NCBI GenBank assembly: GCA_001829315.1
Contig: MIAY01000039.1
Location: 62,001-126,000, forward strand
Source: Spirochaetes bacterium GWE1_32_154
Lineage (GTDB): Bacteria > Spirochaetota > GWE2-31-10
DNA length: 64,000 bases
Direction: 5' to 3'
The translations under genes and the position numbers were made by a program. The notes beneath the pieces are model-generated. The model searched no databases. It was not told the origin of the DNA and was given only the letters and a program-made list of their open reading frames with translations. Of the stretch, positions 10,043 through 45,572 are shown one piece after another; position 1 is the stretch's first letter, and each line of letters opens with the position of its first letter.

Positions 10043-10092
10043 GAGCCTCTTGCATAAAATCGAGATAAAAAATGTATTTTTGCAAGAAGCTC
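10043..10092. repeat. Dispersed palindrome, single-hairpin unit (copy A)
   Basis: The arms GAGCCTCTTGCA and TGCAAGAAGCTC pair with one mismatch around a loop containing TCGAGATAAAAAATG. The copy lies between the convergent adk and rlpA genes, where it could act as a bidirectional terminator. Related copies are at 16064, 20971, 26111, 40584 and 43624. Confidence 0.75.
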
Positions 10093-16063: not shown

Positions 16064-16114
16064 GGATGCTCTTGCAAAAACTTAAGATAAAAAGAGTATT
16101 TTTGCAAGAGATCC
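16064..16114. repeat. Dispersed palindrome, single-hairpin unit (copy B)
   Basis: GGATGCTCTTGCAAAAA pairs with TTTTTGCAAGAGATCC apart from one unpaired base. The loop includes TTAAGATAAAAAGAGTA. It lies between two convergent genes and ends one base before the minus-strand stop codon, so it is probably used as a terminator. Confidence 0.75.
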
Positions 16115-20970: not shown

Positions 20971-21099
20971 TTGTAGAGTTTCTTGCAAAAATACTCTTTT
21001 TATCTCGAATTTTTGCAAGAAGCTACCTCTAACGCAATTATATTGCGTATTGCCGTAAGCAAAATCAAGTACTCTTGATTTTTGCAAGAGGCTCTGTAG
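20971..21099. repeat. Composite dispersed palindrome (copy C)
   Basis: The first hairpin (20973-21026) has arms ending TCTTGCAAAAA and TTTTTGCAAGA around a TACTCTTTTTATCTCGAA loop. A central palindrome ACGCAAT-TAT-ATTGCGT lies at 21032-21048. The second hairpin (about 21058-21085) has arms AATCAAG and CTTGATT extended by GCAAA/TTTGC. The outer ends are also imperfect inverted repeats (TAGAGTTTCTTGCAAAAA against GAGGCTCTTGCAAAAAT). It lies between the bactofilin-like gene and that gene's likely terminator. Confidence 0.8.
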
Positions 21100-40583: not shown

Positions 40584-40704
40584 AAGCCTCTTGCAAAAAT
40601 ACTTTTCTTTTCTCGAATTTTTGCATGAGGCTACCTCTAACGCAATTATTTTGCGTATGGCGGAAGCAAAAATTATGTACTCATGATTTTTGCAAGAGCC
40701 TCAT
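40584..40704. repeat. Composite dispersed palindrome (copy E)
   Basis: It has the same order as copy C: a hairpin with CCTCTTGCAAAAAT and ATTTTTGCATGAGG arms, a central ACGCAA-TTATT-TTGCGT palindrome (about 40640-40656), and a second hairpin ending TTTTTGCAAGAGCC. The outer ends are inverted repeats (GCCTCTTGCAAAAAT against GGCTCTTGCAAAAAT). It lies between the end of the J-domain gene and the start of trkH, both on the minus strand. Confidence 0.8.
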
Positions 40705-41427: not shown

Positions 41428-43593
41428 TTACCTTATATTTCCTTGTGTTATTTTTACTGTATTGATTTTTTTACCGGCTACTTGAAGCGGTGTATTTTTG
41501 AATTCTGCACAATTATTTTTTACTGTTAAAGGTACTTTTGCAAAATCTTCAATACCGATTATTTGTGTATTAGGTTTACTGTCATGTATTGTAATATAGT
41601 GTCCTTCGTTACAGTCCGGGAATAATACTTCAACAATACCGGCTTTTTTATCATCAGCGGCAAGAAGCATACCTTCACTTAAAACACCTCTTAAATTTGC
41701 CGGTTTTAAGTTGTAAACAATAATAACTACTTTATTCAGTAATTCATCTTCTTTATAGTATGGAACTAAACCGGAAACAACCTGTCTTATTTCTCCATTA
41801 CCCATATCAACTTTTTCTACATAAAGTTTATCAGCTTCGGGGTGTCTTTCAATAGAAATGATTTTCCCTGTTTTTAATGCGATGGTACTGAATTCCTCAG
41901 CGGGATTAATAATTTCTTTTTTTCCTGCAAATTGTTCTTTTAATTTTTCAACGAGCTCTTTTTCGAGTTTTGTAAAAAGTACTCCGGGCGGATTTATTTG
42001 TAAACCTTTCAGCATGTCGTAGTTACCAATGTTTGAAATAAGAATTGTATCGGTTGACAGGTTGATGCTGTTGAAGTATCGAGTAATAGCTCCGGGAATA
42101 TACGGGTATAATAAAATTGATATATCACGAACAAAACCGAACAAACTTGAAATTATCCTGTTTGTTTTTTCTTTATCTTCTTTTATAATTTTCCAGGGTT
42201 CGTTGTCCTGAAAAAATTTATTTCCATAAGAGCATAATTCAAGAATTTCGAGAAGTGCTTTTTTCAATTCTACTTTTTCATATAATGATTTAATTGAATT
42301 TACTTTATTTTCAAAGTCGGCGAATTTAAATACAGAATCATCAGATGTATCAACCAAATTTATTGATCCGTCAAAAAATTTCATTGAAAATTGCAAAACT
42401 CTATTAACAAGGTTTGCATAATTAGCGATTATTTCACCATTAACTTTTTCCATAAAATCATTCCAGAAGAATTGTGTGTCATTTTTCTCAGGTCTGTTTC
42501 TTAACAGATAATAGCGGTATAAATCAGGATCAATTCCCGAATTTTTTGCCTGATCTCCAAAAACACCTGTTCCGCGACTTTTTGAAAACTTTTGCTCTTC
42601 ATAGTTTAAATATTCTGTTGAGCTAATTGTTTTTAACATAGTCCAATTATCACCGGTAGCAAGTAATGATGCCGGGAAAAGTACGGTATGAAACGGTATA
42701 TTGTCTTTGCCCATAAATTGAAATAACTCAACATCGTCAGGTGACTTCCACCATGATTTCCAGTCTTTGAATTTATTAGCTGTTATCGATATATAACCAA
42801 TTGGTGCATCAAACCATACATAAAAAACTTTGTTTTCAAAACCTTTAAGCGGTACTTTTACACCCCAATCAAGATCCCGTGTTATACATCTTTTTTTCAA
42901 GCCCTGTTCAATCCAGCCTTTTGTTACCATCAGAGCGTTATTGGACCATTGTCCGAACTCACTTTGTTTTGTAACCCAGTCTTCTATTTGCCCTTTCAGT
43001 TTCTCAAGATCAAGAAATAAGTGATTGGTATCTTTAAAAACAGGTTTCTCACCGCATGAAGAGCATTGGGGGGATTTGAGTTCAGCCGGATCCAAAAGTT
43101 TACCGCAACTCTCACATTGATCACCTTTTGCTTTTTCATATCCGCAATGCGGGCATGTTCCTTCAATATATCTGTCAGCAAGATACATGTCACACTTTAT
43201 ACAAAAGGGTTGAGTAATTGTATCTTCTACAATATAACCTTTATCGTAAATTTCTTTAAAGATGCTTTGCACAATTTCAGTCTGTTCATCACAACTTGTT
43301 CTACCGAAATGTGAAAAAGAAATGTTGAACCAGTCATAAATATCTTTATGTATAGCATGATATTTATCACATAACTGCTTAGGTGTTATGCCTTCCTGTT
43401 TTGCTCTTGTAACTGTTGTGGTTCCATATTCATCGGTACCGGAAACAAACATTGTTTCATACCCTGAAATAGTACAATATTTTGCAAAAACATCAGCTGA
43501 TAAAACACAGCCTATGATGTTTCCAAGATGAGGTATATTATTAACATAAGGAAGTGCAGACGTTATTAAAATTTTTCTTTTATTTGAACTCAT
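41428..43593 (-). CDS. metG: Methionyl-tRNA synthetase
   Basis: MetG charges tRNA-Met and initiator tRNA. 721 residues. ITSALPYVNNIPHLGNIIG carries the HIGH-equivalent motif (HLGN, residues 22-25). A four-cysteine-pair insertion follows (CIKC, CPHC, CESC, CSSC), the two-zinc-knuckle form. EQKFSKSRGTGVF carries the KMSKS equivalent (KFSKS, near 335). The C-terminal 110 residues (IALKTGKIISIERHPEADKLYVEKVDMGNGEIRQVVSGL) form an EMAP/Trbp111-type tRNA-binding domain that permits dimerisation. GGAGAAACATC precedes the ATG. Composite repeat F lies just upstream. Confidence 0.97.
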   Translation of the reverse strand: MSSNKRKILITSALPYVNNIPHLGNIIGCVLSADVFAKYCTISGYETMFVSGTDEYGTTTVTRAKQEGITPKQLCDKYHAIHKDIYDWFNISFSHFGRTSCDEQTEIVQSIFKEIYDKGYIVEDTITQPFCIKCDMYLADRYIEGTCPHCGYEKAKGDQCESCGKLLDPAELKSPQCSSCGEKPVFKDTNHLFLDLEKLKGQIEDWVTKQSEFGQWSNNALMVTKGWIEQGLKKRCITRDLDWGVKVPLKGFENKVFYVWFDAPIGYISITANKFKDWKSWWKSPDDVELFQFMGKDNIPFHTVLFPASLLATGDNWTMLKTISSTEYLNYEEQKFSKSRGTGVFGDQAKNSGIDPDLYRYYLLRNRPEKNDTQFFWNDFMEKVNGEIIANYANLVNRVLQFSMKFFDGSINLVDTSDDSVFKFADFENKVNSIKSLYEKVELKKALLEILELCSYGNKFFQDNEPWKIIKEDKEKTNRIISSLFGFVRDISILLYPYIPGAITRYFNSINLSTDTILISNIGNYDMLKGLQINPPGVLFTKLEKELVEKLKEQFAGKKEIINPAEEFSTIALKTGKIISIERHPEADKLYVEKVDMGNGEIRQVVSGLVPYYKEDELLNKVVIIVYNLKPANLRGVLSEGMLLAADDKKAGIVEVLFPDCNEGHYITIHDSKPNTQIIGIEDFAKVPLTVKNNCAEFKNTPLQVAGKKINTVKITQGNIR

Positions 43594-43623
43594 GATGTTT
43601 CTCCGGACAATAAATTGATTTTA

Positions 43624-43748
43624 TGTGAGGCTCTTATAAAAATCAAGGGTACTCGATTTTTATAAGAGCATTACGCAATTAAATTGCGTTAGAAGAGGCT
43701 AATTGCAAAAATTCGAGATAAAAAGAGTGTTTTTGCAATTAGCTCATG
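43624..43748. repeat. Composite dispersed palindrome, inverted and compensated (copy F)
   Basis: Hairpin 1 has perfect 15-bp arms (43630-43644 GCTCTTATAAAAATC and 43655-43669 GATTTTTATAAGAGC). The central palindrome ACGCAATT-A-AATTGCGT is at 43673-43689. Hairpin 2 has perfect 14-bp arms (43698-43711 GCTAATTGCAAAAA and 43730-43743 TTTTTGCAATTAGC) around a loop that is the reverse complement of the copy C loop. The element is inverted relative to C and E and lies between the divergent metG and REC-GGDEF-EAL genes. Confidence 0.88.
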
Positions 43749-43824
43749 TTATTCTTAATTGTACTTTTTGTCAATTATTTTTAAGATTTGGAAAGTTCTG
43801 TTTTATAAAAAATAAAAGAAATAA

Positions 43825-43853: not shown

Positions 43854-43910
43854 GAGTTTTTATTGAAGTAGTTGAAGATTGTTTTTTAATCAGTGTCAGA
43901 GGATATAACA

Positions 43911-45572
43911 ATGAAGATCGTTTTAGTAGTTGAAGATGAAGAAATAATATTAAATAATATGGCAGCTATTTTAGAAAATAAGAATTATGAAGTGTATAAA
44001 GCAAAGAATGGAGAAGAGGCACTTCTTGTTGTCGAAGATCTTAATCAAAGAAAAATTATTATTGATTATATTATAACTGATATAAATATGCCTGTTATGG
44101 ATGGGTATGATTTTCTTATCGCACTAAGAGCACAATATACAGAATATTATATACCGGTTATTTTTTTAACTGCTTATTCCGCGAAGGTTGATTACCGTAA
44201 AGGTATAACAATTGGTGCAGATGATTATCTTACCAAACCTTTTACTACTGATGAACTGATTGAAAGCCTTATCGCTATTGAAAAAAAACGTGAAAAATTA
44301 TTTGAAATCTATAAAAGCAGAACAAATACTACTATTGATCCTTTAACCGGTCTTTCAAATAGAAATGGTATTGAAAAGTCAATTGAAAAATTGGATCTCA
44401 CTCAAGTTCGATTTTATTATATTCATGTCAGGCAATTTTATAAGCTTAAAGAAATACTTGATATAAGTGAAATTGAAAATATTATGATAAATCTTTCATT
44501 ACGAATTAAATCATCATTAAATGATAATGAAAGACTGATTTATATATCTGATGATTCAGTTTTATTGATTTCAGAAAATGTCGATTTTGATTCACGATGT
44601 AGAAGTATTAGCAGATTATTTAATACAGCAGTTAATTCAGGTTTACGTAATATTTATATATCTGTTAATATTGGTGTTGCAAATTTTGAATACAATTCTT
44701 TAATAACATTAAATAACTCTAAAACTGCCGTTTTTTACTCAATAAATAATGAAACAGGAAATTATTTTGTTTATGATAAAAAAATTGAGAAGAAAGGTAT
44801 TCCTAATATTGATTTACTTATATCAGATGGGTTTAATAATGATAAGTTTTATTTAGAATCCCAGCCGCAGATTAATTTATTTTCGGGGAAAGTTACCGGT
44901 GTTGAATCTTTAGTCAGATTAAACAGTGATGATTATGGAACAATTTATCCTGATAATTTTATATGGGTATGTGAACTCAATGGTTTAATTGACAATTTAG
45001 GTGATGTTGTATTAAAAAAAGCCTGCCAAACGATACTTGAATTTGAAAAACAAGGATTGAAAGATATTCTGGTTGCTGTCAATTTTAGCGGAAAACAATT
45101 GTCTGATAATTCTGTTGTTAAAAGGGTCAAAGATATCATTGGATTGTATGAAATAAATCCGTCATTTCTTGAATTTGAAATTACTGAAACGGTAATGATA
45201 AGTAATCAGACAATGGTTAGAAGTATTCTTGATGAATTTAAAAAAATGGGCATTAAAATTGCACTTGATGATTTCGGTACCGGGTATTCAACATTCTCAT
45301 ATCTTACGAAATTTCCTGTTGACCGGATTAAAATTGATAAATCATTTATTAATGATATATCTTTTGATGTTGATCTTCAACGAATTGTTAAAACAATAAT
45401 AGACCTTGCCCATGATATGAAAATTGAAGTGGTAGCAGAAGGTGTTGAGAATGAAGATCAGCTTGAAGCGTTGTGCGATATCGGGTGTGATATTATTCAG
45501 GGCTATTATTTTTCAAAACCGAAGAAATTTGAAGATTTGGTTGCCTATATAAAAGAAAAAAACTTTGTGTAA
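43911..45572 (+). CDS. REC - degenerate GGDEF - EAL cyclic-di-GMP phosphodiesterase
   Basis: 553 residues, soluble. The receiver domain spans about residues 1-130 (KIVLVVEDEE; Asp in YIITDINMPVMDGYDF; DDYLTKPF). A GGDEF-like domain opens IDPLTGLSNRNG but has lost the catalytic motif (ISDDSVLLIS). The EAL domain spans about 300-550 with key residues kept: VESLVRL in place of EAL, VAVNFSGKQL, EFEITETVMI, LDDFGTGYSTFSYL, IKIDKSFI, VVAEGVENEDQL, QGYYFSKP. It should hydrolyse cyclic-di-GMP under phosphorylation control, with the GGDEF part regulatory. The frame opens at a GTG 18 bp earlier, but AGAGGA before the ATG at 43911 sets the start. A secreted protein gene follows after 16 bases. Confidence 0.92.
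   Translation: MKIVLVVEDEEIILNNMAAILENKNYEVYKAKNGEEALLVVEDLNQRKIIIDYIITDINMPVMDGYDFLIALRAQYTEYYIPVIFLTAYSAKVDYRKGITIGADDYLTKPFTTDELIESLIAIEKKREKLFEIYKSRTNTTIDPLTGLSNRNGIEKSIEKLDLTQVRFYYIHVRQFYKLKEILDISEIENIMINLSLRIKSSLNDNERLIYISDDSVLLISENVDFDSRCRSISRLFNTAVNSGLRNIYISVNIGVANFEYNSLITLNNSKTAVFYSINNETGNYFVYDKKIEKKGIPNIDLLISDGFNNDKFYLESQPQINLFSGKVTGVESLVRLNSDDYGTIYPDNFIWVCELNGLIDNLGDVVLKKACQTILEFEKQGLKDILVAVNFSGKQLSDNSVVKRVKDIIGLYEINPSFLEFEITETVMISNQTMVRSILDEFKKMGIKIALDDFGTGYSTFSYLTKFPVDRIKIDKSFINDISFDVDLQRIVKTIIDLAHDMKIEVVAEGVENEDQLEALCDIGCDIIQGYYFSKPKKFEDLVAYIKEKNFV

Follow-up and report, generated by a model that had tools for sequence, protein, structure and literature searches.

Matched hairpin arms in a dispersed MITE-like element of a spirochaete genome are best explained by DNA arm copying

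The MITEs that derive from insertion sequences (IS) in bacteria are short, gene-less and AT-rich, share terminal inverted repeats (TIRs) with an IS, are flanked by a target duplication, and occur in many intergenic copies (PMC10969869). The family described here agrees with them in all of these respects but is modular, with as many as three successive palindromes, contains single hairpins that are apparently mobile alone, and carries an unusually clear record of arm copying. Multi-base matched changes that perfect imperfect inverted repeats are known from template switching and quasipalindrome correction (PMC8794818, PMC7202029, PMC8604942): perfect hairpins arise and are repaired through template switching with no G-U step (PMC8794818), and the arms of inverted repeats are homogenised by it (PMC8604942). 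Changes of the same sort are seen here, spread over almost 200 copies of a single repeat within one bacterial genome and made in both directions of copying. REP and BIME sequences are likewise composite extragenic palindromes present in hundreds of copies; REPs are tied to REP-associated tyrosine transposases (PMC2817692), whereas the fixed 4-bp duplication and DDE-type ends of the present family argue against its membership in that group. The partner IS found in the phylum resembles the IS5/IS1182 type (DUF772-DDE_Tnp_1), and a broken copy with the same ends lies in the genome under study; the partner IS makes a 4-bp duplication, in contrast to IS1272 of the IS1182 family, which is reported to make none. 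The family is a further member of the known MITE kind, and it holds a clear record of corrected palindromes that resembles RNA covariation.

The window, that is, the whole stretch of 64,000 nucleotides that was analysed, belongs to a genome of 4.03 Mb in 43 contigs. It contains a 119-bp composite palindrome, copy F, located between divergent genes for a methionyl-tRNA synthetase and a response regulator with an EAL domain, as well as further copies of the same family (Table 1). A first-pass annotation of this DNA had described both hairpins and the middle palindrome of copy F as perfectly paired, with changes on one arm matched on the other, and direct reading of the sequence bears this out. 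Relative to the family, TTGC is changed to TTAT in hairpin 1 and GCTTCTTG to GCTAATTG in hairpin 2, in each case with the other arm changed to match, and the right arm of hairpin 1 complements the left one in place of the family's GCTTCCGCC type. The annotation's form of hairpin 1 in other copies, CTTGCAAAAAT/ATTTTTGCAAG, has to be corrected: nearly all of them, including the two other full copies in the window, have a right arm ending in GCTTCCGCC or similar and pair over at most 12 bp. It appears that hairpin 1 of copy F had been set against the hairpin-2 arms of other copies.

Table 1. Copy F, its neighbouring genes and related elements, in window coordinates
Feature	Position	Strand	Basis or remark
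Copy F, complete 119-bp MITE-like element	43627..43745	+	TIRs and exact 4-bp duplication; model R1 positions 1-118 matched
Copy F, left target-site duplication ATGT	43623..43626	.	Read directly; family-wide duplication pattern
Copy F, right target-site duplication ATGT	43746..43749	.	Read directly; family-wide duplication pattern
Copy F, left TIR GAGGCTCTTATAAAAAT (family form GAGGCTCTTGCAAAAAT)	43627..43643	+	Copy alignment
Copy F, right TIR (GAGCTAATTGCAAAAAC on - strand)	43729..43745	-	Copy alignment
Copy F, hairpin 1: 15-bp perfect arms 43630-43644 / 43655-43669, 10-nt loop	43630..43669	.
Copy F, middle palindrome ACGCAAT-TAA-ATTGCGT	43673..43689	.
Copy F, hairpin 2: 14-bp perfect arms 43698-43711 / 43730-43743, 18-nt loop TTCGAGATAAAAAGAGTG	43698..43743	.
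Methionyl-tRNA synthetase gene	41428..43593	-	Pfam tRNA-synt_1g, Anticodon_3, tRNA_bind; start codon 33 bp from copy F, which lies upstream
Response regulator - EAL domain gene	43893..45572	+	Pfam Response_reg, EAL; begins 147 bp after copy F
Second full copy, duplication GAAT	40585..40702	-
Third full copy, duplication TACA	20977..21094	-
Single-hairpin relative, 50 bp	10043..10092	+
Single-hairpin relative, about 50 bp	16065..16114	+

A sequence-only family model built from 24 copies gave 160 matches at E < 1e-3 in the window's genome, and the right-hairpin word with up to three mismatches gave 213 sites, compared with 1 for a reversed-pattern control; about 160-210 copies of the element are present. 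Alignments of 24 and 67 copies reveal terminal inverted repeats GAGGCTCTTGCAAAAAT ... ATTTTTGCAAGAAGCTC at both ends. An exact 4-bp duplication lies flush with the ends in 79 of 109 full-length copies (mean 3.0 and maximum 10 in 200 shuffles), and enrichment comparable to this was not found among the same copies for duplications of 2, 3 or 5-9 bp. The shared TIRs, the exact target duplication and the high copy number identify the family as mobile, and copy F is one copy of a dispersed non-autonomous MITE-like element. The typical element is ~119 bp long and has no coding capacity, with variants up to ~250 bp. Lone single hairpins of ~45-52 bp show an exact 4-bp duplication at 9 of 52 listed places, where 1.1 would be expected, the list including some halves of longer variants. 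Copies are mainly intergenic: a crude call places 19 of 164 within an open frame. They occur in either orientation in every gene arrangement and show no fixed direction relative to genes. When searched, three other genomes of the host's taxonomic family contained essentially no copies, and the exact right-hairpin word had no match in GTDB genomes, a set from which the window's own genome is possibly absent.

Two structural variants were observed within the family. Longer relatives of ~190-250 bp (L128 766-1016, L133 1350-1555, and L125 from 803 onward) have an extra, GC-richer core GGTCGC...GGGGTACC...GACCA between the middle palindrome and the right hairpin, and a subfamily of ~137-139 bp (L019, L029, L035, L036 and L037) has an extra nested palindrome GAAAAAAAGAGTACTTTTTTTAT within hairpin 1.

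An order-wide search with the terminal repeat identified distinct elements of 96-98 bp in a genome of another genus of the same taxonomic family (G001). These elements (L145-L154) differ from the window's, share its terminal repeat and have an internal inverted copy of their left end. IS fragments at contig ends in G001 and in a second genome, G007, start with GAG[GC]CTCTTGCAAAAAT and encode a peptide MKSIA..LGD, which led to a complete 1,481-bp IS in genome G357 encoding a 370-aa DUF772-DDE_Tnp_1 transposase. This IS has the same terminal repeat as the MITE-like elements, its ends being GAGGCTCTTGCAAAAT, and 4-bp duplications (TAGG, AATG and TATG) flank three of its four copies. In the window's own genome (G000, contig C40) only a remnant of such a gene is present: the same terminal repeat is followed by transposase sequence containing stop codons and apparently interrupted by a different insertion. 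This broken DUF772 transposase occupies L164 1091-2400, and by eye the interrupting insertion is possibly of the IS21 type. The shared ends and the same duplication length suggest that an IS of the G357 type moved the elements in trans. Any assignment of this IS to a family would be tentative, since its best NCBIfam models score below their curated cut-offs: IS1182 reaches 80 bits where 270 are required, and IS5_4 reaches 67 where 140 are required. A plasmid search with the N-terminus of the transposase gave no hit. Two other candidates were rejected. The one DDE_Tnp_1 gene found in the window's genome, an IS982-like transposase (DDE_Tnp_1_3) in a single copy (L141 2343-3278), was ruled out as a partner by its non-matching ends, and an apparent 1,594-bp pair of terminal repeats on contig C316 of G001 is actually a short MITE and an unrelated repeat.

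Covariation was analysed for hairpin 2 and the middle palindrome in 67 copies without large inserts. Paired cells make up 95.2%, and eight pairs have changed on both sides. The number of two-sided cells, 106, compares with 41.2 +/- 9.6 after shuffling, with no shuffle as high, and with 1-8 in slid registers; these counts are of cells, not of independent events, and are inflated by related copies. Over 181 copies, 91% of the cells of hairpin 2 and 94% of those of the middle palindrome are Watson-Crick pairs, so in these two parts arm differences are not mostly unmatched across the genome. No covariation above shuffles was detected in the outer stem that opposes one terminal repeat to the other; the matching thus takes place inside each hairpin and not between the ends of the element. 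Since the two-sided cells are mostly at four pairs common to subfamilies, it is uncertain how many independent arm-copy events they represent, five cases being clear. Arm correction is also far from complete, since many copies keep one unmatched pair in hairpin 2 (A-A at columns 76-111 in 47 of 158).

The clear cases are copies in which normally unpaired arms have become complementary. The outer arms of hairpin 1 are unpaired in the consensus (GGCTCTTGC versus GCTTCCGCC), as are the middle palindrome's outer flanks (GCTTCCGCC versus TTAGAGGTAGC). Five copies (F, L006, L025, L032 and L076) depart from this state, in both directions, each with one arm exchanged in a single tract for the complement of its partner, and their closest relatives retain unpaired arms. 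Hairpin 1 of copy F has two left-type arms, the right from the left, with a private TTAT on both. L006 has a 19-bp hairpin 1 of the same arrangement (two left-type arms, right from left) with CATG, although the right arm is of the usual kind in its closest copies L037 and L009, which diverge from it by 2.8% and 4.2% in the remaining sequence; such longer perfect forms of hairpin 1, 19 bp in L006 and 15 bp in F, are rare among composite copies. In L025, which differs from L012 by 1.4% elsewhere, the complement of the copy's right arm has taken the place of the left end, and the terminal repeat is lost. The middle stem is 17 bp long in L032, both arms being of the right type (left from right), and 18 bp in L076, both being of the left type (right from left); the two members of this reciprocal pair cannot both be ancestral. 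The right arm of a further copy, L058, is left-type with the consensus sequence and could be either ancestral or converted. The possibility, raised in the first-pass annotation, that arms are copied from one another is therefore supported by five copies with new long palindromes formed in either direction from arms that are unpaired in the consensus. The loop of hairpin 2 is forward in 127 cases and genuinely inverted in none, and only a fold-back route fits, since the inverted loops left by some template-switch routes are not seen there.

These private palindromes bear on a founder effect combined with recombination between copies, in which hairpins would pass as whole blocks and a few matched types would exist without any arm copying. 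The concentration of two-sided cells in few subfamily types agrees with it, as do the two major haplotypes of the middle palindrome (69 and 53 copies) and the ten types of perfect hairpin-2 arms. Nevertheless, we consider this explanation unlikely, because it only moves the problem back to the origin of every matched type and leaves such features as the TTAT arms of copy F and the left end of L025 unexplained.

The number of G-T and A-C mismatches allows a DNA process to be distinguished from selection on RNA. Whether a transition leaves G-T or A-C is decided by the arm in which it occurs; selection on a folded RNA should favour G-U, but no such preference is expected of a DNA process. In 181 copies we counted 44 G-T versus 71 A-C cells (30 versus 55 in hairpin 2, 14 versus 16 in the middle palindrome). 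For rare mismatches only (at most five copies each), the numbers are nearly equal, 22 versus 18 in hairpin 2 and 14 versus 10 in the middle. The A-C excess of hairpin 2 would become G-U if the opposite strand were read and stems from a few shared subfamily positions; the middle palindrome has no such bias.

As its other reading of the covariation, the first-pass annotation had suggested that a folded RNA or a cruciform is maintained; the covariation is confirmed for hairpin 2 and the middle palindrome, while selection on a folded RNA is not supported, given that G-T is not commoner than A-C and that five copies have newly complementary arms. This alternative, by which copies are transcribed and hairpins kept through compensatory substitution, accounts for the strong, register-specific covariation of hairpin 2 and the middle palindrome, and stable stem-loops are known from MITE transcripts (PMC10969869). 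We nonetheless regard it as very improbable: hairpin 1 is unpaired beyond 12 bp in nearly all copies, L032 and L076 gained pairing that is absent from the consensus, orientation to genes is inconsistent, the Rfam search gave no family match (best E = 0.54, far under the gathering score), and a terminator-like site was looked for at copy F and none was found. For the matched arm changes of copy F, which are genuine, the copying of one DNA arm onto the other offers the best explanation and fits better than selection on RNA.

Taken as a whole, these comparisons of sequence make it probable that copy F is a non-autonomous MITE-like element moved in trans by an IS with matching ends, and that its arms were matched by DNA arm copying. 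In each hairpin a terminal-repeat arm faces its own inverted copy; solitary hairpins also exist, flanked by 4-bp duplications of their own. In a hairpin or cruciform, one arm could serve a polymerase or a repair process as the template for its partner, so that a change would spread from arm to arm or a mismatched arm would be replaced outright; the overwriting seen in five copies and the absence of any preference for G-T point to such transfer. In copy F, the left arm of hairpin 1 with its TTAT may have been copied over a former GCTTCCGCC-type arm, and the two changed positions of hairpin 2 may have been equalised by arm copying. The molecular route would be fold-back replication or cruciform repair, and an RNA function for the element is not needed.

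Matched arms could alternatively be kept by the transposase, if a hairpin or cruciform were required for transposition. This is suggested by reports that members of the IS1182 family such as IS1272 recognise palindromic stem-loops, IS1272 replacing stem-loop targets irrespective of their sequence (PMC5678879), by the below-cut-off scores of the partner transposase, which are best against the IS1182 and IS5 models, and by the apparent independent movement of single hairpins. We give this reading little credence, as the elements leave a 4-bp duplication, unlike IS1272, and insertion does not depend on a perfect hairpin 1: intact duplications flank many copies in which this hairpin is imperfect. 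DNA arm copying remains the preferred explanation. A broader view of the family, which we advance only tentatively, is that of a natural record of DNA palindrome self-correction, whose arms may be continually re-copied both ways and reach full RNA-style covariation without RNA selection, a perfect hairpin being possibly also favoured in transposition.

Covariation of paired bases is routinely read as strong evidence of a functional RNA. In the present family, covariation that is register-specific and resistant to shuffling is better explained via DNA arm copying, and counts of G-T versus A-C mismatches together with newly created palindromes suggest a simple check for telling the two apart. 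The family also adds to the spirochaetes a high-copy MITE that is tied to an IS type by shared ends and target duplication.

The nearest named relatives of the methionyl-tRNA synthetase encoded next to copy F are from Spirochaetales and from Spirochaetes metagenome bins (~60-69% identity), and by this gene the host is placed among uncultured spirochaetes. Many relatives from Woesearchaeota and Nanoarchaeota bins were found as well (~41-49% identity, with one fragment higher), and the occurrence of archaeal-bin relatives beside spirochaete ones hints at an old transfer.
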